Of a stretch of DNA of 64,000 bases, positions 26,575 through 51,850 are shown in pieces; within the stretch, counting starts at the first letter, position 1, and each line of letters begins with the position of its first letter. Source of the DNA: Sphingomonas hankyongi (lineage in GTDB: Bacteria > Pseudomonadota > Alphaproteobacteria > Sphingomonadales > Sphingomonadaceae); contig NZ_JAMGBE010000002.1 in the NCBI RefSeq assembly GCF_023516575.1, positions 372,001 to 436,000 on the forward strand. The letters run 5' to 3'. The notes below the pieces were generated by a model. That model ran no database searches and was not told the DNA's origin. It saw only the letters and a list, made by a program, of their open reading frames with translations. Both the position numbers and the translations under genes were made by a program.

Positions 26575-28377
26575 ATGGGTCGTTGGAGTAACGCGTACAC
26601 ACTCTCGGGCGGGCATCGTGCGCGCTCGATTTCAACATTCGCAGCGTCTGTGTTGTTCATTCCGTCGGCCGTGGCCGCGCAGACGGCTGGCCCGCTGTTG
26701 CCGCCGACCCGCGAAGAAGTAACCCGACAGGAAACGCCTCCCCCACCCGTTCGCCGCCCGCGTATCGACGTGGAAGGCGCGGTCGAGCGGACGCCGTGCG
26801 CGCTCGACAATCCCGATTTCCGCGACATCCGCGTGACCCTGCGCGACGTGCAATTCGATGGGCTTCAGGGACTAACGCCGGAGCAGCTCGCGCCCTCCTA
26901 CGCGCAATATGTTGGCACCGACCAGCCGATCTCGGTCGTCTGCGACGTGCGCGACCGCGCTGCAGCTCTCCTCCGCGACGCCGGCTACATCGCCGCTGTC
27001 CAGGTCCCGGAGCAGCGCATCGCTGACGGCGTAGTGCACTTTCGGGTCCTGATGGCCAAGCTCACCCAGGTTCGCGTGCGCGGCGACGCCGCCGGCGCCG
27101 AAAAGGTCATCGCGGGCTATCTCGACCAATTGACCGAGCAGCCGGTGTTCAACCGGTTCGAAGCCGAGCGCTACCTGCTGCTCGCCAGCGATATCCCCGG
27201 CTACAGCACGCGGATGACCTTGCGTCCGGCCGGAACGGCGCCGGGAGAAGTCGTGGGCGACGTCACCGTCCAGCACATCGGCGCCTATGCAGACCTCAAC
27301 GTCCAGAACATGGGGTCGGAAGACCTGGGCCGCTGGGGCGGGCTCGTGCGCGGCCAGCTCTTCGGCCTCACAGGTTTGGGCGATCGGACGACGCTGTCCG
27401 TCTTCACGACCGCCGATTTCGAAGAGCAGCAGACCGTCCAGCTCGGCCATGATTTTCGGGTTGGGCCGGAGGGCCTGACCGTTTCCGGCAACTTCACCTA
27501 TGCCTGGGCGCGGCCCGGCATCGAGGATGCTGACGTTGAGGCGCGCACTCTGCTCAGCACGCTCGAGGTCGGCTATCCGTTCGTACGTCGCCAGGCGCGC
27601 ACGTTGCGCGGCTCGGCCGGTTTCGATTTCGTCAACCAGGACGTCGACCTCGACAATATCGACCTGACCCGCGACCGGCTCCGGGTCGGCTTCGCACGCC
27701 TCGGTTGGGATGCGGTTAGCACGAATTTCGGCAACGGCCGTTCGCTTGCCGAGCCGCTGTGGCGGGCCACGGCTTTGCTGGAGCTTCGCAAGGGGCTCGA
27801 CATTTTCGATGCAAGCGATCCCTGCGGCCCGAACGGCGCCGATTGCCTTGGCCCCAACGACGTTCCGCCCAGCCGCATCGAGGGACGCGCGACGGCGGGA
27901 GTTGTTCGGCTGGTGTCGTACGGCGAGGTGCGTCCCGTTCCGCGGCTGACCCTCGCTCTCGGAGCCCGGGCGCAATATGCGTGGAAGCCGCTTCTGAGCT
28001 TCGAGGAATTCTCGGCCGGCAATTACACCGTTGGGCGCGGCTACGATCCCGGTGCCCTGCTCGGCGACCGCGGTTACGGCCTGCAGAGCGAGATCCGGTT
28101 TGGCAGCCGCGTCCCGCGCACCGCCAAAAGCGCTGCGATCGAAGCCTATGCATTTTGGGACCACGCGCGCGTCAAGAATCTCGACCACCTGGTCGAGCTC
28201 GACGTCTCCAACCATCTGAATTCCGTGGGCGCCGGCGCGCGCGTCAGCTTCGACCGCTTCGCGCTCGATACCGCGCTTGCGATCCCCCTCACCCATGTCG
28301 GCCTCCTCGACGAAAAGCCGGATCCGCGGCTGCTCGTCTCCCTTTCAACCCGCCTGTGGCCATGGAGCTACAAATGA
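26575..28377 (+). CDS. Two-partner secretion transporter (ShlB/FhaC/HecB family)
   Basis: 600-residue Omp85-type outer-membrane pore that exports the large exoprotein encoded next. After a signal region ending SAVAAQ there is a Pro-rich linker. POTRA domains follow (QFDGLQGLTPEQLAPSYAQY; then LLRDAGYIAAVQVPEQRI, and VVHFRVLMAKLTQVRVRG). A 16-strand barrel contains the lid-loop motif as VGRGYDPGALLGDRGYG, equivalent to the VRGY/F motif of FhaC. The last residues, STRLWPWSYK, are an atypical barrel end without a terminal Phe. A Cys pair (DPCGPNGADCLGPND) sits in an external loop. The ATG follows AAGGGGG. The stop overlaps the exoprotein ATG by four bases. Confidence 0.92.
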   Translation: MGRWSNAYTLSGGHRARSISTFAASVLFIPSAVAAQTAGPLLPPTREEVTRQETPPPPVRRPRIDVEGAVERTPCALDNPDFRDIRVTLRDVQFDGLQGLTPEQLAPSYAQYVGTDQPISVVCDVRDRAAALLRDAGYIAAVQVPEQRIADGVVHFRVLMAKLTQVRVRGDAAGAEKVIAGYLDQLTEQPVFNRFEAERYLLLASDIPGYSTRMTLRPAGTAPGEVVGDVTVQHIGAYADLNVQNMGSEDLGRWGGLVRGQLFGLTGLGDRTTLSVFTTADFEEQQTVQLGHDFRVGPEGLTVSGNFTYAWARPGIEDADVEARTLLSTLEVGYPFVRRQARTLRGSAGFDFVNQDVDLDNIDLTRDRLRVGFARLGWDAVSTNFGNGRSLAEPLWRATALLELRKGLDIFDASDPCGPNGADCLGPNDVPPSRIEGRATAGVVRLVSYGEVRPVPRLTLALGARAQYAWKPLLSFEEFSAGNYTVGRGYDPGALLGDRGYGLQSEIRFGSRVPRTAKSAAIEAYAFWDHARVKNLDHLVELDVSNHLNSVGAGARVSFDRFALDTALAIPLTHVGLLDEKPDPRLLVSLSTRLWPWSYK

Positions 28378-31300
28378 CCCGATCAGTAGTTATCGCGTCT
28401 TCGCGTAATCTCACCTCCAACCGTCGGACGCTGATGCTGTCCTGCGCTGCAGCAGCCGTCGCTGCAGGTGCGCTCCACCCACAGAGGGCGGAGGCACAAG
28501 CCTTCAACGGCTCGATTTCGTCGAGCCTCAATGCATCGCAGACCGCGACTGGTACCGGCACGGAGACGATCACCGTCACGGGCTCGAAGGCCGTGATCAA
28601 CTGGTCTCCCGATCTTAGCGGTACCGGCACGATCGACTTCCTGCCTAATGGCAACGTCGCAACGTTCCAGGGCGCGACGGGCGTTTCGGACTATACCGTC
28701 CTCAATCGCGTGGTCCCCGACGCAAGCCGTGCGATCGGCCTGAACGGAACCGTTCTTTCGAAGGTCGACGGCGGAGCGACCGGCGGCAAGGTCTGGTTCT
28801 ACAGCCCGAACGGCATCGTCGTGGGCTCGACCGCCGTGTTCGACGTCGGCGGCCTCCTGCTGACCACGGCTGACATCCCCGACACGACGGATGACGGCTT
28901 CTCCGACTTCAGCGCCGACAACACCAGCTTCTCCTTCAGCACGAGTTCCGCGCTTTCCGGCACGAAGATCCAGATCGACCCCGGCGCGAAGATCAACGCG
29001 CTCCAGCCGAATAGCTATGTCGCCATGATCGCGCCGCGCGTTGAGCAGGGCGGCGACGTCGTCGTCCGCGGAAGCGCAGCCTACGTGGCCGCAACCAGCC
29101 TCACGATGAGCATGAACCAGGGCCTGTTCGACATCCAGGTCGATCTCGGCACGGGCGGCACGGACGACGCTCAAGGCGTGGTCCACACGGGCACAACATA
29201 TTGGCCGGTCGATGCGACCGGGACGCCACGCGTCTACATGGTCGCCGTTCCTCAGGCTCAGGCACTAAACATGTTGCTTGGCGGGAATGTCGGTTTCGCC
29301 GACGCTGGCGCAGCGTCATTCGACAATGGCGTGATCGTCCTTTCCGCGGGCGGGAGCGTGAAAGAAATCGGTCAGTCGTTCCGCAGTTACAGCGCTCTCT
29401 CGGGCACGGACGCCGACCTCACGATCGATCCCGGCAATTACAATGGCCATGTCGAGGCGGTCGCCAATGGCGACATTTCGGTGCTTGCCGACAGCGGCTC
29501 GATCGCATTCGGTGGCGACGTCATCCTCCGCAGCCAGAACGCGGGCGCCAACGGCAACATCACAATGAGCGCGAGCGGTGGCAACGCCCTTGCGATTGCC
29601 GGCGACCTCACCGCCTCGACGTTCAATTCCACCTTCCTGTCGCTGGTCGATATCAGTGCGGACGGAAGCGATCTGTCCGTTGGCGGGAACCTCATGATAA
29701 CCGCGGCACCAGCCCAGGACGGCAGCGCCTCGGATGTCGACATCGCCGCGCGCAACAGCGGCACTTTCAGCGTGCTCGGCGACACGCAGATCTACGCCAA
29801 CATCGGCGCGTCCGTCTCCCCGGACAGCGACATCGAAGGCCGCGACAATTTCGGCGGCGACGTCGACATCACAGCCAATAGCAACGGCCAGATCAGCCTC
29901 AACGCCCTGACGGTCGACGTCAGCGCCAATGGCGAAAAGGCGCTCGGCAGCCAGACCAACAATGGCGGCGACGGCATCGGTGGCAACGTCTCGATCTCCG
30001 CCAATGGCGGCGGCTCTATCGACATCAACGGCAATCTTACGGCCACCAGCGACGGAATCGGCGGCGATGTCGAAGGAGTCGACGGAATCAATCCGGCGGT
30101 CGGCGGAAACGGTCGCGGCGGAGACATTCACATCACGTCGCAGGATGGCGACATCACCGTGCACGGCGCCACTCTGCTCAAGGCCATCGGCGTAGGCGGC
30201 AGCTACACCGGCGCCCTGCCCTTCCCCGGGGACGTCACCGGAGGCTTCGGCTTGGGCGGCAATCCCAGCGTCTTCCTTAGTGGGAACGGAACGATCACGT
30301 TCCAGGGCGCGGTGGCCCTTACCGCGAACGGAACCGGCGGCGACGCCGTCACCGGCGGCGCGGGCGAAGGCGGCATCGCCGGCTTCACCGCGATCGACGG
30401 AACCCTGGACATCGGCCCGTCGGTGACCATCGACGTCGTCGGCACCGGCGGCGACGCCAATGTCGCGTTCGGCGGCACCGGCGGTCGCGGGGATGGCGGA
30501 ACTGGCTATGTCGAGGCGCGAGCCACGCTCGCCGATTCCACCGACATCATCGTTCTCGCGACCTCGGTCATCAACGGCGGCAATGTCACCATCGACGCCG
30601 GAGGCATCGGCGGTGTCGGCGGCACAAGCAATGGCGACAGTGCCCCCGGCGGAACCGGCGGCATCGGCGCGGGCGGCCTCTACACTGGCGAACTCGGCAC
30701 CGGCGGCGCATTTGCGGCATCGGAAAACGGGTCTGAGATCCATCTCGGCAACGTCACGCTGAAGGCACAGGGCACCGGAGGTGCCGGCGGAGCAGGTTCA
30801 GGCCTGCAGAGCGGCGGCGTCGGCGGCGCGGCCATCGGCGGTTCGGCGGGAGCCGGCGTTTACGGCCCCCAGGGAACGGCGAGCGTCGCAACCTATGGCG
30901 CCGTGACAATGGACGTAACGGCGCAAGGCGGCGCTGGCGGCACCGGAGGCGCCGGGCAAGGCAACGGCGGCGCGGCGACGGGCGGCGGCTATGACGATCC
31001 GCAGACACCCGGCAACGACAATTGGGGCGGCGCACGCATCGACACATTCGGCGATGTCACGATGAATAGCGCAATGCTTGTCGCGCAGGCGATCGGCGGT
31101 CAGGGTGCTATCGGCGGCGATTCGTTTGGCGGCAGCGTACAGGTTGTGTCGTGGGCCGATTCAAGCAGCGACCTCACGATCAACGGCAATCTAGACCTCG
31201 TCAGCTACTCGCAAGGCGGCGGAGGTGCAGTCGGCGGCAATGCGGTTGGCGGTTACGCCGGCTTTGGCTCGCTTGAGTCAGTGGCCTCGCTCGATCCCGC

Positions 31301-34300
31301 AAGCGTCAACGTGACCGGGTGGGTGACGATGAACGTCGTCGGCCAGGGCGGCACGGGTAGCACCGGCGGTTCAGGAAAAGGTGGAATCGCGGAAATCCTG
31401 ATCGACGCGGCTTCAATGAGCGTCGGAGGCCTGACTGCCCTTGCTAATGGAAGCGGTGGCGGTGCTACCGGGACTGGTGGCACCGGCACGGGCGGCCTGG
31501 CGACCTTCACGATCACCGCTGACGGCGGCTCGTTCGCCAGCGGTGGCGACGTATCGCTGGTGGCTCGCGGTGTCGGGGGCGCAGGCCTGGCCAATGGCGC
31601 GGGAGTAGGCGGCGACGGCGGTGATGCCTTCGGCGGCACATCCACGTTCGATATTCTCTCGACGACCGCGACCGCCGATATCGGAGGAAACCTGTTCGTG
31701 CTCGCGCAAGGCAATGCCGGGGACGGCGGCCAGGGCTCGACCGATGGCGGCGCCGGCGGTGACGGCCAGGGCGGCAGCGGGTCGATGACGATCGACGGCG
31801 ACGTCACCGTGGCCGTCGATGCAATCATCAACGTCAACAGCACGGGCGGCGCAGGCGGTGCCGGTGTCAACGGCAACGGAGGCGCTGGCGGCGCCGGGCT
31901 GGCAGCCAATTCCGATTCATTGACATTGAACGGGACGCTGCAGGCCAACGGCTATTTCGGGCTCGCGCGCGCCTTCGGAGGAGCCGGCGGTGACGGCGCC
32001 ACGCTGGACGGAGCGGGCGGTGACGCGTTCGCGGGAACGTCGACCATGGACGTGGCCGGGCAATTCATCGCCACAGGCCAATTCAATACGCAAAGTGCCT
32101 ATATCTTCGGCGCTTCCTCGACCGCGTTCGGCGGAGTTGGAAGCAGCGGCGGATCCGCTCAAGGCGGCTCGTCGACGCTCGATCTCAGCGGCAGTGCAAA
32201 CGGCAACCTCAACGTCGTTGCCAGCGGCCTTGCCGGTGTCGGCAACGCAGGTGCCGGCGGAGATGGAACCGGCGGAAGCGCATCGGTAACCGTCTCGGGA
32301 ACACTTACGGACGACGGGGGCTTCGGGATCGTCCACGCCAATGGCCTGGGCGGCGACGGCACGACGTCGGGCGGCAATGCCCAGGCGGGCTCGGCGAGCC
32401 TGACGATTCAGAGTGGCGGAACTGCAACCTTCGCGACTCCTGCCTCCAGCGAGGAAAATGCAGTGCGCGCTGACGCCACTGCCGGCAACGCGACGGCGGG
32501 CGCAGGCGGCTCGGCATCGGCCGTAGACAGCCTGGCGCAGGTCAACGTCGACGCCGGCGGCCAACTCAACGCCGCGAGACTGATCGTTTCTTCGACGAGC
32601 ACGGGCGGCAACGGCTCCACGGACGGGGGCACAGCGACGGCCGGCGCGGCGGAAATCAACGTCGACGGCACTGCCGCGCTCGGCAACTCGAATGTCCTCG
32701 CGCAGGCTTTCGGCGGCACCGGCACGGCTGGCATTGGCGGTGACGCAACTGCCGGGGCCGCGGACCTGCGCGTAAGCGGTACGGCGACCGGCGGCAACGT
32801 TGTCGTTCGTGCGAATGCGGTAGGCGGCAACGGAGCGGCCAGCGGCGGAGCAGCCCAGGGCGGCGATGCGTTGCTTGACGTGACTGGCAGCGCAAGCTTG
32901 GCAGCCCTCACCGTCCACGGCTCTGCCCAAGGCGGAACGAGCACGGCGGGAACAGGCGGAATTGGTAACTCCGGAGACGCCACCGTTTCTGCGGACGGCG
33001 GGAATATCGCTGTGACCGGGCAGGCGCTTGTCCTGGCGAACGGAAATGGCGGAAGCGGTTTCACAGCCGGCGGCGACGGTTTCGGGGGCACAGCTGAAGC
33101 GACGGCCGACAATGGTGGCAGCATCAGCTTCGGTGGCGTCGATTCCACCATAAACGCCAGCGGCAACGGGGGCGACAGCTCGAACGGAACGGGCGGCAAT
33201 GGCACGGGCGGCGATGGTTCGGCCAATGCTTTCAACGGCGGAACGCTTGCGGGCAACTTCGTCATTGGAGCTCAATCTTCTGGCGGCGATGGCATCCAGG
33301 GTGGAGATGCCCAGGGAGGACGCGCTTCCCTGGTAGCGAGCGGGACTGGCTCAACGTTGAATCTGGCCAGCACCTGGGTGAGCTCGCAGGCGATCGGAGG
33401 CAACGGCGCAAGCAGCGGCGGCGATGCGACCGGCGGCACCACGCAGTTGGTCGTAGAATTCGGCGCGAGTGCAGCCGTAAGCGGAACGACGCTCATCGAC
33501 TCCCAGGCATGGGCCGGTGCGGCAAGCGCAGGGACTGGCGGCAACGCGACTGGCGGTGATCTGCTGGCAAGCATCGAAGCGGGCTCGACGGCCACGCTCG
33601 CTAACCTCGACGCAACCGCGGATGCTCACGCCGGCAGCGGCGTCGATGGCGGAAATGGCCAGGCGGGGATCGCCAATGTCCTCGTCGACGGCGGCAGCCT
33701 GACGCTCACCGGCAACAATAGCATTCATTCCATTGGGTATGGCGGCGACGCGACAACAGGGACCGGGGGCACCGGCACAGGCGGTGTTGGACCGGGGACT
33801 GCAGGCAATGAAGGCGGCGCACAGCTGCTCGCAATCAACGGCGGAACAGTCTCAGTCTCATCTCTCGACGTGAATGCCGATGGCTTCGGCGGCAATTCTA
33901 CCGGCGGCCAAGGTGGCGATGGAGTCGCCGGGTTCGCGCTCACCGAGACGCATGGCAACTTCACCGGTACCGGCGAAATCTTCGTCAGCGCTGATGGTGA
34001 AGGCGGCGACGGCGCCAGCGGCGGAGGCGATGGGCTCGGCGGTGACGCAGCGGTTCGCCTGGCCGGTGCAAGCAATCTTTCAGGCGATGTTTCGATACGC
34101 GCCGCAGGCACCGGTGGCGCTTCGGCCAACGGCACGGGCGGCGATGGCACCGGAGGCTATGCGCGAACGACTGCTTTCAATGGCGCAACGGCAACGGTCC
34201 ACAATCTGACCGTCGATTCCAGCGGAACCGGTGGGGACGGCTTCAATGGCGGTGATGGGACGGGCGGCCAGCTCGTCGGCAGCTCCGGCGGCTCGGTCGT

Positions 34301-36815
34301 ACAGACGGCGGGTCCTGCCTCTTATGCGCTGACTGGACAGACGATCATCACTTCCAATGGCGCCGGTGGCAACGCCACGGGCGCGGGCGGCGTCGGCGGC
34401 AGCGGCCTCGGCGGAGCCATTGGCGTGAATGCGGTTTCGGGCCCGCTGACATTCGGCGCTGCCTCGATCGACGCGAATGGACTGGGGGGCGCGGGCTCAA
34501 CCGCGGGCACCGGCACGGGCGGCGCCGTGCAGATCCAAGCCGATGCCGGCGCCATGAGCGGCGGGGCGGTAACGATCCATGCGAACGGCTCGACCGATGG
34601 CGGCGATGTTTCGCTATCTACAATAAATGCCGGAAGCATCACATTTGCCTCGCTGAATGCGACAGCCAACGGCGCCTCGGCGGACGCGGGCGACATCACC
34701 GTCGATGTCGATGCGACCAGCACGATGGCGCTCGGAAATGCTTCGTTCACTGCCAACGGCGCCAGCCCGCCGGGCAGCGGCGAAGACGGTATCGAGTTCG
34801 GTGTGCTCGGCACGCTCTCGGCAAGTCAGCTTCAGCTCACCTCCACCGATGACATCCTGTTCGAGCTGTTCTCGGGCGGCCAGATGACGGTTTCCGGCAC
34901 GCTGCAAGCAGATTCATCGTCAGTCATTCGCCTGGTTGGAGACGGCAGCGCCGCACTCCTCCAGTCGAACACGCTGGACCTGGCCGGGGCCGACATCCAG
35001 TTCTCCGCCGACATCCAGGCTGCGGACATCTTGCTGACCCTGCCTGGCGATTATGCGGTCGGATCGCTTCCGGTGGCGGGCAACAGCCTGACGATCAACG
35101 CCGGCGGCGACATCAGCGCGCTCGAAAGCATCTTCTACGGCGCCGGGCTGGCGCTGAACGCCGCAGGCGATATCTCGATCGTCGACATATTGCTCTCCTC
35201 GGGCGATCTCAGTCTCGCCGCCAACTCGGGCAACATCACTGCCGGCAATCTGGACGCCGCAGGCGATGTAAGCGCCACTTCGGCCGGCTCCATGCAGCTC
35301 GGTAACGTTTCCGGGCAGGCAGTCGCACTCAATGCAGGCACGACGCTGGACGCGCTTCTGATTGACGGCACGACCGTCAGCGCTGCCGCCGGAGGTGCAA
35401 TGCAAGTCGACGGCGTAAACGCCGCCGGCGCTGTCGCGCTTAACTCCGGCGCGGCGCTGAACGTTGGTGATGTCAGCGGCGGCGCGATCGCTCTCTCGTC
35501 GACGGATGCGAGTGTCACCACTGGCGATCTCAGCGGGTCCAGCGTTTCCGTGACGGCCGGAACCGACCTGTCGGTCGGCGATGTCGACGCCACGTCGACG
35601 GCGAGCTTCACGGCCGGCGGTCTCGCTGGCTTCTACGGCCTGGTCTCGGCCCCGACGATCAACGTGACTTCAGGCGACATCAATATCGCGGACGGTGCGA
35701 GCCTCGGCTCGTCGTTGACCAATGTTATCAACCTGCTCGCGGTTAGCGACAGCCCCGTAATCCTCGGCAGCGGCGGCAGCGTTGCGCCGGGCCAATATGT
35801 CCTCGACGAAGACGGCGACATCGTTGCGGACACGGTCAACTTCACCGCGCAATCCGCTGGCAATGGTGCCGCTCCGAACATACTCGTTCGCGACGCGACG
35901 ATCGAAGGGAGCCAGACGGCGGGCGGCGGAGTGTCGACGGTGAACGTGTCCACCGGGAGCGACATCATCGTCGAAGGCGACGTCAGCTTCGTCAACGCAT
36001 CCGCCACCGACGCGCTCAACCTGTCGGCCGGCGACGCGATCAAGGTCGTCACCGATACCGGCAGCATTTCGATGACCGATAGCGCCGGCGGCCTCTCGGG
36101 ATCGCTCGGCCTCACCGCGCACGATGTCTGGGTCGCCGATCAGGCGCTGCTCAACCAGCTTAGCGCGAATCCCGACTTTGCCGGCTTCGAGGATGCGCTC
36201 GGGATCAACAACGGTCCAGTGAACCCTGACGGTTATGTTACCGCCGGCGGGATCACCGTCACGATGCTTGGCAGCAGCTTCCTGGTCCAGAACACCGGGA
36301 CGACCGATGCTCCGGCCGGCCTGACCGTCGGCGACGGCGGTCTGCACATCGTCAACCTCGGCAGCGATCCCGCGACGGTGATCCTGTTTGGGCAGCAGAA
36401 TAGCGGCGGCACCGTCACCAGCGGAGACGCTTTTTATGACAGCGTCGAATTCAGCGGCTCTGGCGGGTTCACCGGCAATTCCGCGGTCAATGGCTGCGAC
36501 GTCGGCAACGGCTGCGCTCCCGACGTCCCGCCGGGCACCATCGGCGGCGCTGAATCGATCCTCGGCCCGGTCGGTCTCATGAATAGCCCGAGCGACTTGA
36601 TCGCCGGCAACGACGACGACGAGATCTTCGGACCGGGCGGCGAGCAGCTGGCCGGAGAAGAGGGCGACGGCGACGAGGACGACGACCAAAGCGACGACAG
36701 CGAGTCCGGCGCCGACGCGTCGGTTGGAATCATCAACACCGGGCCGGTCTCGATCGACCAGCCGGTCGACGAGCCGGTCACGAGCGGCAGCGACGGCCCC
36801 GGCGGCTCGAATTAA
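28374..36815 (+). CDS. Giant glycine-rich two-partner secretion exoprotein (filamentous haemagglutinin type)
   Basis: 2813-residue TpsA-type adhesin. ATG 28374 has GGAG 6 bases upstream and lies in the transporter's stop overlap. A long signal peptide ends AEAQ near residue 46. The TPS secretion domain follows to about residue 180, with NLT-like starts and GKVWFYSPNGIVVGSTAVFD (family motif NPNGI). The bulk, about residues 530-2080, is a glycine-rich beta-helix-like array with blocks such as GGDGTGGYA. A less repetitive region follows, then a Cys pair (C2708, C2714: NGCDVGNGCAPD). The tail is very acidic (EEGDGDEDDDQSDDSE). The two cysteines are the only ones I find in the mature part and recall the C-terminal disulfide loop that anchors HMW1A. 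The likely site is the cell surface. Confidence 0.88.
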   Translation: MTRSVVIASSRNLTSNRRTLMLSCAAAAVAAGALHPQRAEAQAFNGSISSSLNASQTATGTGTETITVTGSKAVINWSPDLSGTGTIDFLPNGNVATFQGATGVSDYTVLNRVVPDASRAIGLNGTVLSKVDGGATGGKVWFYSPNGIVVGSTAVFDVGGLLLTTADIPDTTDDGFSDFSADNTSFSFSTSSALSGTKIQIDPGAKINALQPNSYVAMIAPRVEQGGDVVVRGSAAYVAATSLTMSMNQGLFDIQVDLGTGGTDDAQGVVHTGTTYWPVDATGTPRVYMVAVPQAQALNMLLGGNVGFADAGAASFDNGVIVLSAGGSVKEIGQSFRSYSALSGTDADLTIDPGNYNGHVEAVANGDISVLADSGSIAFGGDVILRSQNAGANGNITMSASGGNALAIAGDLTASTFNSTFLSLVDISADGSDLSVGGNLMITAAPAQDGSASDVDIAARNSGTFSVLGDTQIYANIGASVSPDSDIEGRDNFGGDVDITANSNGQISLNALTVDVSANGEKALGSQTNNGGDGIGGNVSISANGGGSIDINGNLTATSDGIGGDVEGVDGINPAVGGNGRGGDIHITSQDGDITVHGATLLKAIGVGGSYTGALPFPGDVTGGFGLGGNPSVFLSGNGTITFQGAVALTANGTGGDAVTGGAGEGGIAGFTAIDGTLDIGPSVTIDVVGTGGDANVAFGGTGGRGDGGTGYVEARATLADSTDIIVLATSVINGGNVTIDAGGIGGVGGTSNGDSAPGGTGGIGAGGLYTGELGTGGAFAASENGSEIHLGNVTLKAQGTGGAGGAGSGLQSGGVGGAAIGGSAGAGVYGPQGTASVATYGAVTMDVTAQGGAGGTGGAGQGNGGAATGGGYDDPQTPGNDNWGGARIDTFGDVTMNSAMLVAQAIGGQGAIGGDSFGGSVQVVSWADSSSDLTINGNLDLVSYSQGGGGAVGGNAVGGYAGFGSLESVASLDPASVNVTGWVTMNVVGQGGTGSTGGSGKGGIAEILIDAASMSVGGLTALANGSGGGATGTGGTGTGGLATFTITADGGSFASGGDVSLVARGVGGAGLANGAGVGGDGGDAFGGTSTFDILSTTATADIGGNLFVLAQGNAGDGGQGSTDGGAGGDGQGGSGSMTIDGDVTVAVDAIINVNSTGGAGGAGVNGNGGAGGAGLAANSDSLTLNGTLQANGYFGLARAFGGAGGDGATLDGAGGDAFAGTSTMDVAGQFIATGQFNTQSAYIFGASSTAFGGVGSSGGSAQGGSSTLDLSGSANGNLNVVASGLAGVGNAGAGGDGTGGSASVTVSGTLTDDGGFGIVHANGLGGDGTTSGGNAQAGSASLTIQSGGTATFATPASSEENAVRADATAGNATAGAGGSASAVDSLAQVNVDAGGQLNAARLIVSSTSTGGNGSTDGGTATAGAAEINVDGTAALGNSNVLAQAFGGTGTAGIGGDATAGAADLRVSGTATGGNVVVRANAVGGNGAASGGAAQGGDALLDVTGSASLAALTVHGSAQGGTSTAGTGGIGNSGDATVSADGGNIAVTGQALVLANGNGGSGFTAGGDGFGGTAEATADNGGSISFGGVDSTINASGNGGDSSNGTGGNGTGGDGSANAFNGGTLAGNFVIGAQSSGGDGIQGGDAQGGRASLVASGTGSTLNLASTWVSSQAIGGNGASSGGDATGGTTQLVVEFGASAAVSGTTLIDSQAWAGAASAGTGGNATGGDLLASIEAGSTATLANLDATADAHAGSGVDGGNGQAGIANVLVDGGSLTLTGNNSIHSIGYGGDATTGTGGTGTGGVGPGTAGNEGGAQLLAINGGTVSVSSLDVNADGFGGNSTGGQGGDGVAGFALTETHGNFTGTGEIFVSADGEGGDGASGGGDGLGGDAAVRLAGASNLSGDVSIRAAGTGGASANGTGGDGTGGYARTTAFNGATATVHNLTVDSSGTGGDGFNGGDGTGGQLVGSSGGSVVQTAGPASYALTGQTIITSNGAGGNATGAGGVGGSGLGGAIGVNAVSGPLTFGAASIDANGLGGAGSTAGTGTGGAVQIQADAGAMSGGAVTIHANGSTDGGDVSLSTINAGSITFASLNATANGASADAGDITVDVDATSTMALGNASFTANGASPPGSGEDGIEFGVLGTLSASQLQLTSTDDILFELFSGGQMTVSGTLQADSSSVIRLVGDGSAALLQSNTLDLAGADIQFSADIQAADILLTLPGDYAVGSLPVAGNSLTINAGGDISALESIFYGAGLALNAAGDISIVDILLSSGDLSLAANSGNITAGNLDAAGDVSATSAGSMQLGNVSGQAVALNAGTTLDALLIDGTTVSAAAGGAMQVDGVNAAGAVALNSGAALNVGDVSGGAIALSSTDASVTTGDLSGSSVSVTAGTDLSVGDVDATSTASFTAGGLAGFYGLVSAPTINVTSGDINIADGASLGSSLTNVINLLAVSDSPVILGSGGSVAPGQYVLDEDGDIVADTVNFTAQSAGNGAAPNILVRDATIEGSQTAGGGVSTVNVSTGSDIIVEGDVSFVNASATDALNLSAGDAIKVVTDTGSISMTDSAGGLSGSLGLTAHDVWVADQALLNQLSANPDFAGFEDALGINNGPVNPDGYVTAGGITVTMLGSSFLVQNTGTTDAPAGLTVGDGGLHIVNLGSDPATVILFGQQNSGGTVTSGDAFYDSVEFSGSGGFTGNSAVNGCDVGNGCAPDVPPGTIGGAESILGPVGLMNSPSDLIAGNDDDEIFGPGGEQLAGEEGDGDEDDDQSDDSESGADASVGIINTGPVSIDQPVDEPVTSGSDGPGGSN
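29950..34620 (+). repeat. Glycine-rich repeat region of the exoprotein
   Basis: About 4.7 kb of degenerate in-frame repeats coding GG-x-G-x-GG blocks separated by 25-40 residues of beta-strand-like sequence. The repeats are diverged at DNA level; I see no long exact tandem copies. Boundaries are approximate. Strong strand asymmetry here also opens long spurious frames on the minus strand. Confidence 0.7.
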
Positions 36816-36827
36816 TCGGAGGCGGAC

Positions 36828-39800
36828 ATGCGCGTCACAGGCATTTCCATTGCAGTTGCGACCACGGTGTCCATTTTGGGCCTCGCGAACTCGGCGGGCT
36901 CCGCGCCCCTAAGCGTTCGCGACAGCTTCAGGATCGGTAACGCAGGGACTATCTTCTGTTCCGCCCAGAGCCTCGCGGCCGATCCGGGCCTCGCGAGCAT
37001 GTTCGACACCGGATATTCCGTGACTTGTCGCGATGCTGCCGCGCCGGTCGGCAAGCTCTACAAGTTGCGCAGTTCGGCCGACCCTGCGGATAGGCTCGCA
37101 GCCGCCCGGGCTCAACAGGTGAGCTGCTCCGTGCCCCATGAGGGTCCCGTCACCGATCTCGGCAATGTCGAGATCATGGACTGCAAGCTCAAGGACGCGG
37201 ACGTCGCCTATCGCGTCTACCGCTTGCAGAAGGGCAAGCTGACCTACGTGGCCGAGGGGCTGTCGGGTTACGACAGCGTCCTGCAGCTCGGCCTGCGCAA
37301 TTTGGTCGCCGACCGCCAGATCCCTGGTGAGGTCTCAATTGCGACGACCGGACTTGGCGATCCTTCGGCCTTCGCACGCGTTCAGGCGGGCACGCTCGAC
37401 GCGACCCGCGCGCTGAACGAAGCCTACCGCCGCAACAACGCCGGCAGCTATGCCGAGGCGGCGGAATTCTTCGCCGCGGTCACGTCTTCCGGCGACGCCC
37501 CGCTGAGCCGCGCCGAAGGCCTGGCAAACGAAGCCCTTCAGAAGTCGAACCTCGGGCGCTACGCCGAAGCTGACGCGTTGTTCGCCCGCGCGACGGAAAG
37601 CGTCGGCAACGACGCCATCGTGACGAGGCGCTTGCGCAATTATCGGGCAATGCATTTGCTCAACCAGGATCGCGCGAAAGACGCACTGGAGGTGCTCGAC
37701 AAGCCTCTGCCCAAGGGTGCGGAGCTTGGCGGGGACGCAGCCGTGCGCTCGCTCGAGATCGACACTGCTACGGCAAAGCGGCTGAACGCAGACTCGAAAA
37801 TCGGCAAGCAGCTCGGCGCCGCTTCGGACGAGCTGCTGCCGGAGGAGAAAGCGGAAATCCTCGACGGCCAGGCGCTCCAGCTGCGCGGCACGGCGCTTCG
37901 GCTCACCGGCAATGTCGCGGGCGCGACGAACGCGCTGCGCCAGGCCGACGCCAAGCTGCAGGGCGTGCGCGGCGGCAAGGTCGTCTCGATCCTGTGGATG
38001 CGCGCGCAGATCCTCGGCGACCTTGCGGCGATCGCGGAGGAATCCGGCAACGCGGCGGAAGCCGACCAACTTTATCGCCAGGGCATCGCGTTGATCGAAG
38101 CGACCTATCCCGGCTCTGCTGCGCTGCTCAATTCGAAGGCCAGGCTTGCAGGTTACCTGGCGCGCTCCGGGCAGCTCGCGACCGCTGAAACGATGTTCAG
38201 CGAGATCGTCCATTCGCAGCCGGACACAAGCAATCTTCCGCCGTCCTTCGCGAACGTGCTGCGGCCCTATGTCGACATCCTGCTCAAGAAGAACGATCCG
38301 GCGGCGACCGCCGAGATCTTCGCCACGACCCAGCTGATGGTTCGGCCGGGCCTGGCGCAGACTCAGGCGGTGCTCGCGCGCGAGCTTAGCGGCGGCACCA
38401 ACGAGGCTTCGCGGCTCTTCCGTCAGTCGACCAATCTCACTCGGCAGATCGAGCGTGCTCGCGTCGAGCTCTCGCGGATCGAGGACATTGCGCAGCCCGC
38501 GCCGGAAGAGCTCGCAAAGGCCCGGGTGCTGAAGGCATCCATCGGCCAGGCGCAGAAGCAGCAGGTCGCGAGCCAGGCGGCGCTCGCAAGCTTCCCGCGC
38601 TATCGTGCGGTGGCCGGCGAAGTCATGCCGCTCGCCGACCTGCAGAAGACTCTTCGCCAGGGCGAGGCTTATTACCGTATGACCATCGTGGGTGACGCTG
38701 CCTACGCGGTGCTCGTCACGCCGGTCTCCGCCAAGGCGGTGAAGCTCGGCGTCACGGCCAAGCAGCTGGCGGAGCAGGTCAGCGCGCTTCGCGAGACCAT
38801 CTCGACGGTCGAGAACGGGCAGCGCATGACCTATGCCTTCGACGTAGGCCTCTCCCACCAGCTTTACGGCGAGCTTTTCGGTCCGTTCAGCGGAGACGTT
38901 ACGAACGTTAAGCATCTGATCTTCGAGCCCGACGGCGCCATGCTGCGCCTTCCGCCGAACCTGCTGGTCATGGACCAGGCTTCCGTCGATGCGTACCAGA
39001 AGCGCGCGGCGGCCGGCGGCGATGCGGAATTCGACTTCCGCGGCATCAACTGGTTCGGCCGCGACCGCGACATCAGCACCGCGGTTTCGCCTCGCGGTTT
39101 CGCGGAGTTGCGGAGCGCGCCTCCGGCCGCCGGCCCGAAGCTGTACCTCGGCCTCGGCGAAAACAGTAAGCCGTCGGCTACCACCGCAGTCCCGGCTGCC
39201 GCTGATCGCGACTGCGTGCTTCCGCTCTCGTCGTGGGGGATGCCGATCTCCGCGAAAGAGCTGCGCGTTGCCGGTGGCATCCTCTCCAATGTCGATCCCA
39301 ACGGCGTGCAGATCGCGACGGGCGACCAGTTCACCGATACGGGCCTCGAGCAACGCTCGGACCTCAACCAGTATCGCGTGATCCATTTCGCGACCCACGG
39401 CGTGGTCACGGCGCGCGCCCCGAAATGCGCTGCACAGCCGGCGTTGCTGACGAGCTTCGGCGGTGAAGGTTCGGACGGTCTGCTGACCTTCCGCGAGATC
39501 TTCGACCTGAACCTCGACGCCGACCTGATCATCCTGTCGGCATGCGACACCGCCGGGACTGCCAGCGCGGCGGCCACGCAGGCGGTCGGCCTGGCGTCCG
39601 GAGGCGAGGTCGCTCTCGACGGTCTCGTCCGCGCATTCGTCGGGGCCGGCGGGCGCCTGATCGTCGCAAGCCATTGGCCCGTGCCGGACGACTTCGATGC
39701 GACCCAGCGGCTGATGACGGGGATGTTCTCCGCGCCGCCCGGGACGCCGACGGTCACCGCCCTGCGAATGTCACAGCGACAGTTGATGGACGACCCGAAT

Positions 39801-39899
39801 ACATCCCACCCCTTCTACTGGTCGGCGTTCGCGGCCGTTGGAGACGGGGAAATTCCGGTTATCAGGAGCAAGCCGCAGCAGGTTGCCCAGGCCCGCTAG
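36828..39899 (+). CDS. Secreted TPR-CHAT protein (caspase-like fold) of the secretion operon
   Basis: 1023 residues. A signal peptide ends near NSAGSA (residue 26), so the protein should be periplasmic or exported. A unique domain with four Cys comes first. TPR-like helices follow (about 190-500, e.g. NNAGSYAEAAEFFAAV and LGRYAEADALFARATE). A coiled coil lies near 520-590, and a CHAT domain ends the protein (about 650-1010). The caspase-type dyad is present: His857 in VIHFATHGVV and Cys906 in LIILSACDTAG. VGLASGGEVALDGLVRAFVG and VIVASHWPVPD-like segments complete the fold. It starts 12 bases after the exoprotein with GGAGG upstream, so it is third in the operon. I infer a processing or quality-control protease for the exoprotein; this is unproven. 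Confidence 0.9.
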   Translation: MRVTGISIAVATTVSILGLANSAGSAPLSVRDSFRIGNAGTIFCSAQSLAADPGLASMFDTGYSVTCRDAAAPVGKLYKLRSSADPADRLAAARAQQVSCSVPHEGPVTDLGNVEIMDCKLKDADVAYRVYRLQKGKLTYVAEGLSGYDSVLQLGLRNLVADRQIPGEVSIATTGLGDPSAFARVQAGTLDATRALNEAYRRNNAGSYAEAAEFFAAVTSSGDAPLSRAEGLANEALQKSNLGRYAEADALFARATESVGNDAIVTRRLRNYRAMHLLNQDRAKDALEVLDKPLPKGAELGGDAAVRSLEIDTATAKRLNADSKIGKQLGAASDELLPEEKAEILDGQALQLRGTALRLTGNVAGATNALRQADAKLQGVRGGKVVSILWMRAQILGDLAAIAEESGNAAEADQLYRQGIALIEATYPGSAALLNSKARLAGYLARSGQLATAETMFSEIVHSQPDTSNLPPSFANVLRPYVDILLKKNDPAATAEIFATTQLMVRPGLAQTQAVLARELSGGTNEASRLFRQSTNLTRQIERARVELSRIEDIAQPAPEELAKARVLKASIGQAQKQQVASQAALASFPRYRAVAGEVMPLADLQKTLRQGEAYYRMTIVGDAAYAVLVTPVSAKAVKLGVTAKQLAEQVSALRETISTVENGQRMTYAFDVGLSHQLYGELFGPFSGDVTNVKHLIFEPDGAMLRLPPNLLVMDQASVDAYQKRAAAGGDAEFDFRGINWFGRDRDISTAVSPRGFAELRSAPPAAGPKLYLGLGENSKPSATTAVPAAADRDCVLPLSSWGMPISAKELRVAGGILSNVDPNGVQIATGDQFTDTGLEQRSDLNQYRVIHFATHGVVTARAPKCAAQPALLTSFGGEGSDGLLTFREIFDLNLDADLIILSACDTAGTASAAATQAVGLASGGEVALDGLVRAFVGAGGRLIVASHWPVPDDFDATQRLMTGMFSAPPGTPTVTALRMSQRQLMDDPNTSHPFYWSAFAAVGDGEIPVIRSKPQQVAQAR

Positions 39900-40409: not shown

Positions 40410-42125
40410 ATGGCAACTGCGCTTTCCAATAATCGGAAAATGTTTCTTACGACTGCGGGCGTGCTCGTCGTCGGTGTGGCCGCTTATGGTCTCGGTCGGG
40501 TCTATCCGCCGCTCGGACCTAGCGCCGGTACGGTCGCTCCGGCGGAGCGGTACGTCTCGAGCCAGGTTGGCGAAGGCGACGTCACGCTAGGCGACACATC
40601 GGTTCCGCAGCTGATGCAGACCGACGCGTTCCAGGTCATGGTCAAGGATGCCAACTTCCGGCAGCTTGCGAACGACCCGGGATTTGCCGCGCTCGCGTCC
40701 AATCCGGCCGTGATGTCGGCTATTGCCGCCAATCCCGCCCAGTTCTCGGCGCTCGCCAAGGATCCTTCGGCGTTCCATTCGCTGGTTCAGCAAGCGTCGC
40801 AGCTATCGGCTGCGGGCTCGCAGCTCGGTGGTGGCCAGAACGCGGCGCTTGCAGCGATGGCCCAGAATTCGAGCGCGTTTTCGAAGCTGGCGCAATCGCC
40901 CGGCGCATTCTCGGCACTTGCCGGCAATGCCTCGGCGTTCAACGCGCTGAACAACCATCCGGCAGCCTTTGCGGCGATGGCGCAAAACGCGTCGGCGTTC
41001 AGCAAATATGCCGGCAACGTCGCGCAATTCAAAGTCGACGCCGCAAATGGCGCGAACCCCGCGATGTCGGCCAACCAGGCGGCATTTTCGAAGCTCGCGA
41101 ACGATTCCGCGGCGCTGTCCGCGCTCAGCGCGAACAACGGGTCCGCCTTCTCGGCGCTCGGCGCCAACGCCGCGGCGTTCAAGGCGCTGTCGGCCAATGG
41201 TGCGTCGCTCCACAACCTGCAGGTCGCGTCCGGCCTGATGGCGCAGAACGGAGCGGCCTTCCGCTCGCTTGCAAGCAATCCTAGCGCGCTGCAGGCGGCC
41301 GCTCAGTCCGCATTCCAGCTCGGTTCCCACTTGAACTCGGTGGGCGCTCTGAATGCCTCGGCACTGTCGGCGCTATCGGCGAATGCGAGCGCGCTTTCGG
41401 CCCTGTCGGGTAATCCCGCCGCACTTGCGGCGCTTGCCGGCAACGCATCTGCATTCAGTGCCTTGGCAAACCATCCAGCAGCCTTCGCGGCAATGGCGCA
41501 AAACGGGGCGGCATTCTCCAAATATGCCGGCAATGTCGCGAGCTTTAAGACCGCGGCATTGAGCGGCAAGGATCCCGCTATGTCCGCCAATACGGCGGCT
41601 TTCTCGAAGCTTGCCAACGACTCCGCGGCTATGTCGGCGCTCAGCTCCAACAATGGCGCGGCACTGTCGGCGCTCGGTGCGAACGCGAGTGCGTTCCGGC
41701 AGCTGTCGAGTAATGCGGCGTCCTTCCGCAACCTGCAGTCGGCGGCGAGCCTTATCGGCAAGAACCAGTCGGCCTTCGCCAATTTCGCGAAGAATGGCTC
41801 GGCTCTCGCCAACTCTGCGATGGCGGCTTCGAAGTTCAACTCCGCTGCAGGGCTGTCGGCACTTCAGGGTCAGGGTAAGCTGAACAATGCGATGCTGTCG
41901 GCATTGCAGCAGAACGGGGCGGCCCTGTCGGCCATATCGGCCAACCCGGCGGCCTTCTCCGCGCTTGCCAACAACCCTGCGGCACTGTCGGCCCTCGCCC
42001 GCAACGGGAGCGCCTTCTCGGCTCTCTCGAACAATGCGAACTTCCGCGCGCTGGCGGGCAATCCGGCGTTCGGAGCGGCTCTTCGCTATGGCAACGTGGC
42101 GAACGCGGTGAACCAGGCGAACTGA
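40410..42125 (+). CDS. Membrane-anchored protein of Asn/Ala/Phe decapeptide repeats (unknown family)
   Basis: 571 residues. A single hydrophobic helix (residues 11-28, MFLTTAGVLVVGVAAYGLG) without a clear cleavage site should anchor the protein in the inner membrane, with the rest in the periplasm. From about residue 80 almost everything is a run of roughly 45 ten-residue units close to A-N-x-A-A-F-x-A-L-A. Examples are ANPAQFSALA, QSPGAFSALA and NHPAAFAAMA. Phe/Leu recur at fixed positions, so a regular solenoid is likely. A 102-residue block is duplicated (170-271 and 342-443). Cys and Trp appear to be absent. I do not recognise a family. It follows the CHAT operon and precedes a secreted metallopeptidase-like gene. 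Confidence 0.85.
   Translation: MATALSNNRKMFLTTAGVLVVGVAAYGLGRVYPPLGPSAGTVAPAERYVSSQVGEGDVTLGDTSVPQLMQTDAFQVMVKDANFRQLANDPGFAALASNPAVMSAIAANPAQFSALAKDPSAFHSLVQQASQLSAAGSQLGGGQNAALAAMAQNSSAFSKLAQSPGAFSALAGNASAFNALNNHPAAFAAMAQNASAFSKYAGNVAQFKVDAANGANPAMSANQAAFSKLANDSAALSALSANNGSAFSALGANAAAFKALSANGASLHNLQVASGLMAQNGAAFRSLASNPSALQAAAQSAFQLGSHLNSVGALNASALSALSANASALSALSGNPAALAALAGNASAFSALANHPAAFAAMAQNGAAFSKYAGNVASFKTAALSGKDPAMSANTAAFSKLANDSAAMSALSSNNGAALSALGANASAFRQLSSNAASFRNLQSAASLIGKNQSAFANFAKNGSALANSAMAASKFNSAAGLSALQGQGKLNNAMLSALQQNGAALSAISANPAAFSALANNPAALSALARNGSAFSALSNNANFRALAGNPAFGAALRYGNVANAVNQAN
40917..41738 (+). repeat. 306-bp duplicated block inside the decapeptide-repeat gene
   Basis: Copy 1 is 40917-41222, copy 2 is 41433-41738; both are 306 bases and 516 bases apart. 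Both encode a block running from LAGNASAF, through HPAAFAAMAQN, AFSKYAGNV and AFSKLANDSAA, to NLQ. Copies differ at many codons, so the duplication is not recent. Confidence 0.8.
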
Positions 42126-42161
42126 CGCGTAAGCCGCCGCTAGGCGGTGTTTGGGGGGCTG

Positions 42162-45100
42162 ATGAGGGGGAACGGGCAACCGCGGCGGGCGGTGTCGAGC
42201 ATCGTTGCGTCGCTGCTGCTCGGCTCTGCTTCAGCTGCTTTCGCGCAGCAGGCGCCGGAATCCCCTCCCCCTCAGCCCGACACAACCACGGTCGTCGAGC
42301 CGCAGCCCCAGCCGGGAACGCCTGAATCCGAGGAGCCTGCCCCCAAAGAGACGGCCAAGAAAGAAGGGCCGGCGCACGTTCCGCCGGATGCGTCGGGGAT
42401 TGACCTCACCACCCTCGAAACCAAAGACCTCGATCTTCTCTATTTCGACCCGGTCCAGACCTATCTGACGCCGTATATCGCGCGCGCTTATGAGAATGCG
42501 CTGAATTTCCACAAGAAGACCTTCCAGTGGGAGCCGTGGGAGAAGACCACTACCCTGCTCAAGGACTTCAGCGATTATGCGAATGCCGGCGCGCGCGCGT
42601 CGCCGAACAACACGGTGCTGATCGATGTCGCGCCGTTGTCGCTGAGCATGGAGACGTTCAGTCCAGGCGAGCGCTTCTTCACCATCGTGAACCACGAGAT
42701 GGCGCACGTCGCGCAGATGGACGTGTGGAACAAGCGCGACGCCTCATGGCGCCGTTTCTTCCACGGCAAGGTTTCGCCAATCCAGGAGCACCCGGAATCC
42801 ATTTTCTATAACTATCTGGTGACCCCGCGCGTGAACACGCCGCGCTGGTATCTGGAAGGCGGCGCGGTCTTCTTCGAAACATGGATGTCCGGCGGGCTCG
42901 GACGCGGCCAGGGCGGCTATGACGAAATGGTCTGGCGCGCCAAGGTTCGCGACGACGACAAGTTCTACTCGCCGCTCGGACTCGAATCCGAAGGGACCGC
43001 GGTCGACTTCCAGGTCGGCGTGAACGACTATCTCTACGGTACGCGGTTCATGTCCTACCTCGCGCTCAAGTTCGGGCCGGACAAGTTCGTCGAATGGCAA
43101 AGCCGAAGGGAGGGCAGCAAGGCGTTCTACGCCACGCAGTTCAAGCATGTGTTCGGGCGTCGCCTGAACGACGTGTGGAACGAATGGATCGCGTACGAGC
43201 ACGAATATCAGAAGGCCAATCTCGCCAGGCTCGCCCAATATCCGCTGACCGAAACGGTTAAGCTCAGCCCCAAGGGTCTCGGGTCGATGTCGCGAGGCTA
43301 TGTCGACGAGAAGACCAACAGCCTCATCGCGGCCTTTCGTTATCCGGGGACCATCGGATTCATCGGCCGGATGGACCTTGCCACGGGCAAGCTGACGAAG
43401 CTCCAGGAAATCAAGGGCATGATGCTGTACAAGGTGACCAGCGTCGCCTTCGATCCGGATGCCCGCACCGCTTATTACACCGAAGACAATTACGCATTCC
43501 GCGACATCATCGCCGTCAACGTCGACACCGGCCGCAAGCGCATGCTGCTGAGGGACGCGCGGATCGGCGATTTCGTGCTGAACCCCGTGGACAAGTCGAT
43601 CTGGGGCATCCGGCACGAAAACGGCCTGGCCACGATCGTCCGCATCCCGCCGCCCTACGCTGGCTTCAACCAGATGCACACGTTCAACTATGGCCAGGTC
43701 CCGTTCGATCTCGACATCTCGCGCGACGGCACGAAGCTTTCGGCATCTTTTGGCGAGATAAACGGGACGCAGTCGGTCCGCGTGTGGGACGTCGCCAGCC
43801 TGGCGCCAGAAGTCGAGCCGGTGGAGATTTCCCGGCTCGATATGCCGCCCTCGACCCCCGAGGGCTTCGTCTTCGCTCCAGACGGGAAGTCGCTTTACGG
43901 GACGTCCTATTATACCGGTGTTTCCAACGTATTCCGCTTCGACATCGAAACGAAGAAGTTTGAGGCGCTGAGCAACGCCTCTACCGGTTTCTTCCGGCCG
44001 ATGCCGCAACCCGACGGCTCGCTGATCGCCTACGAATATAGCGGCCAGGGGCTACAGCCCGTCCGCTTCACGCCGCAGGTCCGCGACGATCTCGCCACTG
44101 TCGAATTCCTCGGCACCAAGGTCGTGAAGGAACGGCCGGAGCTCAAGGAATGGGGCGTCGGTTCGCCCGCCAAGATCGACCTGGATTCGATGATCACCGC
44201 GCGGAGCAAGTACAACAGCTCGCGCCGCATGAAGCTCGCCGGCATGTATCCCATGGTGCAAGGCTACAAAGGCGCGGTCTCACCGGGATATTTCATTCAT
44301 TTCGAAGACCCGCTGCAGTTCCGCCAGGTCAATATCGACCTTTCCGTCTCCCCATTCGACCAGATGCCCGACGGGGAGCGCCTGCACGCCAAGCTCCAGT
44401 TCAAGACGCTCAACTGGAACCTTCGCTATTTCCACAATGCGGCGGATTTTTACGACATCTTCGGGCCGGTCGAGCGGAGCCGCAAAGGCAATGCGCTCAT
44501 CGCCGAGTACAACAAGACCACGATCTACGATCCGCCGCGGCAGCTCGACCTGTTCGCGACCGGAGCTGTTTTCCTTGGCCTAGAGCGGCTGCCGACAGCC
44601 CAGAACATTCCAAGCCCCGAGAATATTTTCTCGCTGGAGGCCGGCGCCAAATATACCAACACCCGCAAGGCGCTCGGCGGCGTCGATCACGAAAAAGGCA
44701 TTGCCTGGCGCGCGATAACGAACCTCGATTTCGCGGAGGAGCATTTCTACCCGAAGATCCACGGCGGCATCGATTATGGCGTGCCGCTTCCATTCCCCAA
44801 CAGCTCCGCATGGATTTATGCGCACGCGGGCGCTGCCTGGGGCCAGAAGCTCAGCCCGCTCGCCGCCTTCTACTTCGGATCCTTCCGCAACAACTATGTC
44901 GATGAGCGTCCCGAGAAGCGCTACCGGGAGGAAGAAAGCTTCCCCGGCTTCGAGATCGACGAGATCGCAGCGCGCCGGTTCGGCAAGCTGACCGCCGAGA
45001 TCAATCTGCCTCCGATCCGCTTCGCCGAGGTCGGCACCCCGGCATTTTACCTGAGCCATTTACGTCCGGCAGTTTTCGCCAGCGGAATGCTCACCGAGGA

Positions 45101-46474: not shown

Positions 46475-51850
<5,376 letters not shown>

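Follow-up and report, generated by a model that had tools for sequence, protein, structure and literature searches.

Among two-partner (type Vb) secretion (TPS) systems, those of HMW1 and HxuA lock the end of the exoprotein (TpsA) within the pore of its transporter (TpsB) by a disulfide loop near the C-terminus (passages in PMC5422565). The Pseudomonas adhesin CdrA, likewise two-partner-secreted, is believed to be retained by a cysteine hook and has its tail cut by the periplasmic LapG, with the release of CdrA and of LapA by LapG being under second-messenger control (passages in PMC5422565, PMC11898600, and PMC4694147). In Bordetella, the C-terminal part of the TpsA protein FhaB is processed, partly in the periplasm, by DegP, CtpA, and SphB1, a step of biological importance (PMC8263021). 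According to passages of a 2017 review, putative maturation protease genes seem to lie outside TPS operons (PMC5422565), and HMW1 has a glycosyltransferase as its co-transcribed third partner (passages in PMC8151025). Here, we analyzed a 64,000-nucleotide window of Sphingomonas hankyongi DNA (contig NZ_JAMGBE010000002.1, positions 372,001 to 436,000 of the forward strand), in which genes for a FhaC/ShlB transporter, a giant exoprotein, and an exported TPR-CHAT protein lie in a row. We found that a short tag at the C-terminal end of such exoproteins tracks the CHAT gene among relatives, which suggests a dedicated handling system for the exoprotein tail.

The window system consists of parts of known kinds; their combination appears to be new, and the tag is new here. 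Like LapG with CdrA or LapA, it would place a periplasmic protease at the tail of a two-partner adhesin with a cysteine hook, and the exoprotein has a Cys pair near its C-terminus (C2708 and C2714), as expected of a LapG-type substrate and reminiscent of HMW1 and HxuA. However, the cysteine protease LapG belongs to a family other than CHAT, and the window enzyme, for which CHAT is the sole Pfam family at E 0.001, does not belong to the LapG family. Control differs as well, being exerted by inner-membrane LapD and cyclic di-GMP in the LapG system, whereas the window system has an in-operon TPR-CHAT protein and a C-terminal tag on its exoprotein. For FhaB, the proteases are encoded separately, while here the putative protease gene is in the operon, and the passages of PMC5422565 describe the HMW1/HxuA anchor with neither a C-terminal tag nor a partner protease. 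The window CHAT protein shares the TPR-CHAT fold of Craspase (type III-E CRISPR), whose RNA-activated, Cas7-11-bound Csx29 cleaves Csx30, and on this precedent a specific protease role is possible for a TPR-CHAT protein (passages in PMC10028731). Unlike Csx29, the window CHAT protein carries an export signal. A dedicated cysteine enzyme found alongside a short motif at the C-terminus is also familiar from LPXTG/sortase and PEP-CTERM/exosortase, though the window enzyme is of another family and the basic cluster at the very end is absent from the window tail, whose last 94 residues include 23 acidic and no basic ones. No paper combining the CHAT domain with two-partner secretion, CHASE2, or hemagglutinin was found in the searchable literature, outside of which most subscription journals lie.

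The three-gene locus

Transporter, exoprotein, and TPR-CHAT genes follow one another on the + strand with the following features:

26575..28377, +: TpsB transporter of the FhaC/ShlB type with POTRA_2 domain, 600 aa (PF03865, PF08479)
28374..36815, +: TpsA exoprotein, 2813 aa, 22% glycine, signal sequence (from sequence; residues 90-243 match TPS below cut-off)
28641..29102, +: region of the exoprotein that corresponds to the TPS secretion domain (PF05860, sub-threshold at E 5.3e-7)
28803-28817, +: SPNGI motif inside the TPS region (from sequence)
36489..36515, +: NGCDVGNGC with C2708 and C2714, candidate disulfide hook of the exoprotein (from sequence; regular expression in relatives)
36516..36728, +: variable linker of the exoprotein (relatives unalignable here)
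36729..36812, +: C-terminal tag region of the exoprotein, IINTGP...DEPVTSGSDGPGGSN-end (tag profile A5 E 1.0e-6; alignments)
36768-36788, +: DEPVTSG within the tag (from sequence)
36828..39899, +: exported TPR-CHAT protein, 1023 aa (PF12770 E 2.7e-48; AlphaFold2 model)
36828..36905, +: signal peptide of the CHAT protein (from sequence)
36906..37307, +: N-terminal beta domain of the CHAT protein with C44, C67, C100, and C119 (alignment, AlphaFold2 model)
37362..38612, +: TPR-like helical region of the CHAT protein (model helices; TPR_12 E 9e-4)
38853..39845, +: CHAT protease domain, with codons for His857 at 39396-39398 and Cys906 at 39543-39545 (Pfam, alignment)

Both coordinates and families agree with the original prediction of a trio, in which transporter and exoprotein genes overlap by four bases (ATGA), 12 bases separate the exoprotein TAA from the CHAT gene, the exoprotein has 2813 residues, and the TPR-CHAT protein begins with a signal peptide. 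The three genes are presumably co-transcribed; a promoter and terminator scan gave no signal above shuffled sequence. The 2.55 Mb genome has a single CHAT match and a single ShlB match, both at this locus. As is typical of a TpsB protein, the transporter combines a ShlB barrel (E 1.3e-12) with a POTRA domain (POTRA_2, E 4.2e-8), both over the Pfam cut-off. The exoprotein scored 30.2 bits against the TPS domain, under the 33.5-bit cut-off, and 24.5 bits (E 1.8e-5) against TIGR01901, under the 29.1-bit cut-off.

The dyad was likewise correctly foreseen as intact, with His857 within HFATHG and Cys906 within LSACDT, settings that we take to be the usual CHAT motifs. Among 115 aligned CHAT proteins, His is found at the first position in all and Cys at the second in 114, the exception being a truncated sequence. 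The protein thus belongs to the CHAT family of clan CD cysteine proteases and, with its dyad present, is a putative protease. While the TPR part scores weakly at the sequence level, its helices are clear in the AlphaFold2 model (mean pLDDT 83.0, pTM 0.78). A home-made rule detects a signal peptide in 112 of the 115 CHAT proteins, and many of the more distant relatives have a lipobox. A PDB sequence search returned just TPR and designed proteins, every one at E > 0.05. Six cysteines (C44, C67, C100, C119, C796, and C867) occur jointly in 87 of 92 linked CHAT proteins. Among 23 further, more distant ones, C796 is found in L226, L230, and L233 only and C867 in all except L243, so a C796-C867 bond, part of a three-disulfide idea for CHAT, is unsupported as a general feature. 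Since Cys867 (39426-39428), near the active-site His, is kept where C796 is absent, it may have a role of its own.

A C-terminal tag in CHAT-linked exoproteins

Besides C24 inside the signal sequence, C2708 and C2714, about 100 residues from the end, are the only cysteines of the window exoprotein. By analogy with the HMW1 type, they form a candidate disulfide hook that would lie in the periplasm. By regular expression (regex), such a Cys pair was detected in 65 of 73 CHAT-linked exoproteins, 11 of 17 exoproteins from class-level loci (those outside the order), and 1 of 21 exoproteins without CHAT. Alignment of the CHAT-linked ends revealed, after the Cys pair and a hypervariable linker, a short tag resembling [DE]PV[TS]GxGNxxLW, the core of which is conserved while the tail flanking it, including the linker ahead of it, cannot be aligned among relatives. 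A profile of this tag was positive in 70 of the 73 CHAT-linked exoproteins (it misses L043, L046, and L071, though the last has the tag in a different reading frame) and in 0 of the 21 CHAT-less ones. The latter came from 40 fetched unlinked loci, chosen as a complete adjacent open reading frame (ORF) of at least 500 residues or by a TPS-profile match; 12 have this match, seven are exoprotein-like by sequence, and two (L194 and L198) resemble chance frames.

A 29-position tag profile was run over 246 whole genomes of the order (Sphingomonadales), which include sources of the profile, and found 62 matches, spread over 56 genomes. CHAT-linked sequences were the basis of the tag regex and of both tag profiles. 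Of the 62 matches, 60 are < 20 kb from a listed CHAT on the same strand (34 upstream, 26 downstream), and the match in genome G112 adjoins a partly masked CHAT gene, bringing those beside CHAT to 61. The match in G061 is a 47-residue frame (E 0.002) and is probably spurious. CHAT and tag together occur in 55 genomes (54 from the lists plus G112), though the Fisher test on these genomes, as well as that on the FhaC clade below, is inflated by the kinship of the species. With profile A5, the window genome gave a single match (E 1.0e-6), at the exoprotein end.

Thirteen CHAT places near ShlB, among the matches listed, have no tag match. Four of these (L244-L247) are divergent loci with the Cys pair and with related ends (VGRGNEGLI, VGRGNEGLI, VGTNNEGLF, and TGSSNESLW), L183 has an exoprotein ending in AGNPAGM, L182 is at a contig end, and the others (L140 and L248-L253) are taken up below. 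A core regex matched 50 of the 73 CHAT-linked exoproteins of the order (44 with a stricter form), 11 of 17 class-level tails (7 with the stricter form), and 0 of 21 CHAT-less exoproteins. It also matched 16 of 1256 background ORFs (stricter form, 4), of which at least three are CHAT-linked exoproteins. A different C-terminal end, similar to YPRKQARN/H, is common to the CHAT-less exoproteins L193, L196, L201, L202, L203, and L206, and hence C-terminal tags may be common in TPS.

Proposed mechanism

We regard it as moderately probable that the trio is a type Vb system with a dedicated third partner, in which a hook retains the exoprotein tail in the periplasm and the TPR-CHAT protein recognizes the tag and cuts the tail. 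FhaC would export the exoprotein with its N-terminus leading, and the last ~110 residues would remain periplasmic, where the small Cys-Cys loop would catch at the FhaC pore like a hook, with the acidic linker and then the C-terminal tag coming after it on the periplasmic side. Such retention is proposed by analogy with HMW1, HxuA, and CdrA. The exported TPR-CHAT protein would then read the tag and cleave the tail by its Cys/His dyad, and anchoring or release of the exoprotein would in this way come under the control of an enzyme from the same operon. Where relatives also have a CHASE2-nucleotide cyclase and a small exported protein, as many do, these two probably regulate the tail step or read it. 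Recognition, cleavage, and its consequence are thus predicted steps, and they are built on the gene set, the dyad, the extracytoplasmic signals, the linkage over several gene orders, the co-occurrence of tag and CHAT, and the Cys pair.

More tentatively, and with less confidence than in the tail cut as such, tag and TPR-CHAT might form a so far undescribed system for C-terminal sorting or release, the clan-CD equivalent of sortase or exosortase within type Vb secretion. Here, the TPR groove would read the tag, the cut tail would leave the exoprotein freed or moved to an envelope acceptor, and five-gene versions would be wired to the CHASE2 nucleotide cyclase.

Linkage and co-inheritance of CHAT and FhaC

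When the 246 genomes of the order were searched whole, CHAT was found in at least 92 and ShlB in at least 106. Among the matches listed, 66 of 150 CHAT places are < 30 kb from a listed ShlB, and all 66 neighbors share a strand, with ShlB upstream in 33 and downstream in 33. This neighborhood exceeds chance. A scan for close relatives retained 80 of 221 loci, mostly Sphingomonadales records, and further stretches were fetched from other genomes. By profile, 115 loci with one full CHAT (114 distinct) were sorted into gene orders, where cyc is the CHASE2-nucleotide cyclase and x a small exported protein: fhac-tps-chat (43 loci), chat-cyc-x-fhac-tps (23), chat-fhac-tps (8), fhac-tps-chat-cyc-x (6), tps-chat (3), fhac-chat (2), other sets (7), and CHAT alone (23). 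Where the exoprotein gene is directly ahead of CHAT, the CHAT start codon is in a 4-base overlap with the exoprotein stop in 36 of 52 loci. CHAT alone comprises 14 close relatives, of which 11 have < 3 kb of upstream sequence and three (L077, L118, and L120) a giant same-strand ORF ahead of CHAT, and nine distant loci with no FhaC or exoprotein match within the fetched stretch. The genomes with the exoprotein-less FhaC-CHAT pairs L132 and L140 also hold FhaC-exoprotein-CHAT loci (L133 and L139).

The original prediction had made much depend on adjacency being conserved beyond close relatives, and this is borne out by the several gene orders and by the class. A class search with the CHAT alignment matched 46 of 289 genomes (E 1e-30), two of them inside the order. 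Twenty class-level loci were taken, the 16 best-scoring plus four from lower ranks (L240-L243) with several between omitted, and they include near relatives (L226/L227, L230/L233, and L237/L240, with L240 apparently the same plasmid as L155). Seventeen of these have an FhaC match or a giant adjacent ORF: 12 an FhaC match (in L241 on the opposite strand) and five more a giant same-strand ORF just ahead of CHAT (L231, L235, L236, L237, and L240). L234 ends at a contig edge, and L242 and L243, both lower-rank picks, have neither FhaC nor a giant ORF. On a Niveispirillum plasmid, FhaC, a giant ORF, CHAT, a small protein, and the cyclase stand in a row, and on one of Sphingomonas parapaucimobilis an annotated filamentous-hemagglutinin-type gene directly precedes CHAT. 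In a phylum survey (E 1e-30), relatives occurred in 23 of 398 genomes, one of them outside the class. As for the cyanobacterial parallel drawn in the original prediction, in four cyanobacterial plasmid regions two CHAT genes adjoin a CHASE2 gene (one of them DUF928 too) and each of their proteins shows a match to POTRA or to the POTRA portion of FhaC, with L159 (10203-14465, Calothrix plasmid) encoding a POTRA-TPR-CHAT fusion, but no FhaC-exoprotein-CHAT trio was seen in the four.

The association of CHAT, FhaC, and exoprotein is old. CHAT and FhaC trees are largely congruent, with 49 of 69 bipartitions common over 72 loci and a Mantel r of 0.64 (maximum in 2000 permutations, 0.16). The best clade of the FhaC tree unites 75 of 77 CHAT-linked FhaC with one unlinked FhaC, at low support (0.36). 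Outside it are L156, a distant plasmid locus, and L078, represented in the tree by a second, unrelated transporter that was wrongly picked. Both the agreement of the trees and this weakly supported clade are also what one would expect if the tag were a lineage-specific exoprotein end, matched to CHAT through common descent of one operon. We rate this the least probable of the explanations weighed here, as the tag core is kept beside an unalignable flanking tail over several gene orders and related cores reappear in divergent class-level and distant loci. Recognition and cutting of the tail by CHAT is the reading that we retain.

CHASE2 cyclase and small exported protein

CHASE2 is an extracytoplasmic sensor domain, and in cyc it is joined to a nucleotide cyclase (the member scanned contains PF05226 and PF00211). 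Together with the small exported protein, cyc accompanies CHAT in many loci, including 8 of the 20 class-level ones. This company, and the best Foldseek match being DdvA, an anti-sigma factor, would fit a different arrangement, in which the tail is mainly a ligand and the TPR-CHAT protein monitors completion of secretion or occupancy of the hook, signaling via the small protein to the cyclase and so altering a nucleotide second messenger. We consider this unlikely. In 43 of 49 fhac-tps-chat loci the fetched flank contains no cyclase, and the invariant catalytic dyad would be needless for pure sensing. Moreover, no module-type CHASE2 cyclase was found in the window genome, whose two CHASE2 proteins score 2e-40 and 2e-12 against the cyclase profile, compared with ~1e-200 or better for module members. 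One, encoded ~80 kb from the trio, was rejected as the module cyclase, being CHASE2-SpoIIE; the second was compared with the cyclase profile alone. The three-gene form, with its proposed cut of the tail, should therefore work without a cyclase. The surveillance and periplasmic-switch roles mentioned in the original prediction may still apply, given the cyclase present at many loci, though none of this type was found in the window genome.

For the small exported protein x (~250 aa), a FecR-like identity was rejected, as Pfam gave no support for it in 18 members (best E 0.013, to an unrelated domain), and DUF928 was likewise rejected (probability 0.6%). Among the CHAT-less loci, L191, L194, L195, L198, L200, L217, and L223 have FhaC a few kb from a ~780-aa match to the CHASE2-cyclase profile, and the two such proteins scanned (L194 and L217) are CHASE2-EAL. 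A CHASE2-cyclase-DUF928 fusion is found close to CHAT genes in Gemmatirosa (L163, 4495-7266).

Evidence for and against the proposed tail cut

Several observations speak against a cut of the tail by CHAT. The window exoprotein itself retains DEPVTSG, but its GNxxLW end is degenerate, and the exoproteins of L248 and L249 have no clear tag despite CHAT. Niveispirillum-type tails (L237 and L240) and those of L234, L235, L236, and L238 fail the core regex. In two FhaC-CHAT pairs, no exoprotein lies between the genes or next to them (L132, 5476-10445; L140, 7457-12390), and L250-L253 have no giant ORF on the fetched side. The species are related, and the tag may be an end that a single exoprotein lineage has conserved, and not a ligand of CHAT. 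Likewise, the clade of CHAT-linked FhaC is poorly supported, no instance was found within it in which CHAT and tag had clearly been lost together, and its one unlinked FhaC (L204) has no CHAT or exoprotein match in the fetched stretch. Lastly, when tail and CHAT were folded as one read-through chain, the tail was disordered (pLDDT 28-41), and docking on CHAT is thus not predicted.

The unplaced tail, together with the two loci that retain FhaC and CHAT without an adjacent exoprotein, would suit a tag that serves the exoprotein and FhaC only, in anchoring, folding, or release, with CHAT acting on FhaC, failed exoprotein, or invading periplasmic proteins and being co-transcribed for dosage. The POTRA domains of the cyanobacterial L159 protein would also fit a role on the TpsB side. 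We hold this to be quite unlikely, given that the tag is absent from all 21 CHAT-less exoproteins and that all but one of its 62 genome matches are beside CHAT. Because the tag tracks CHAT, the notion of a protease devoted to the exoprotein has gained support, with cleavage itself being a prediction.

Neighboring genes

Downstream of the trio, also on the + strand, are genes for a 571-aa protein of NPAAFSALA-like repeats (40410-42125), a 1039-aa protein with a signal-like start and a HEMAH zinc-protease-like motif (42147-45266), and a hybrid histidine kinase of 1791 aa with about nine HAMP domains (46475-51850). The first two have no Pfam match at E 0.001, and ORFs of a size like the first also come after CHAT in the close relatives L033, L035, and L039.

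Implications

If the proposed mechanism is true, this would be a two-partner system with its own in-operon protease, contrary to the remark in the 2017 review (passages in PMC5422565). The tag would then give an exported caspase-like protein a signature on its substrate. It makes the role of this group of CHAT proteins testable and offers a marker for locating such systems.

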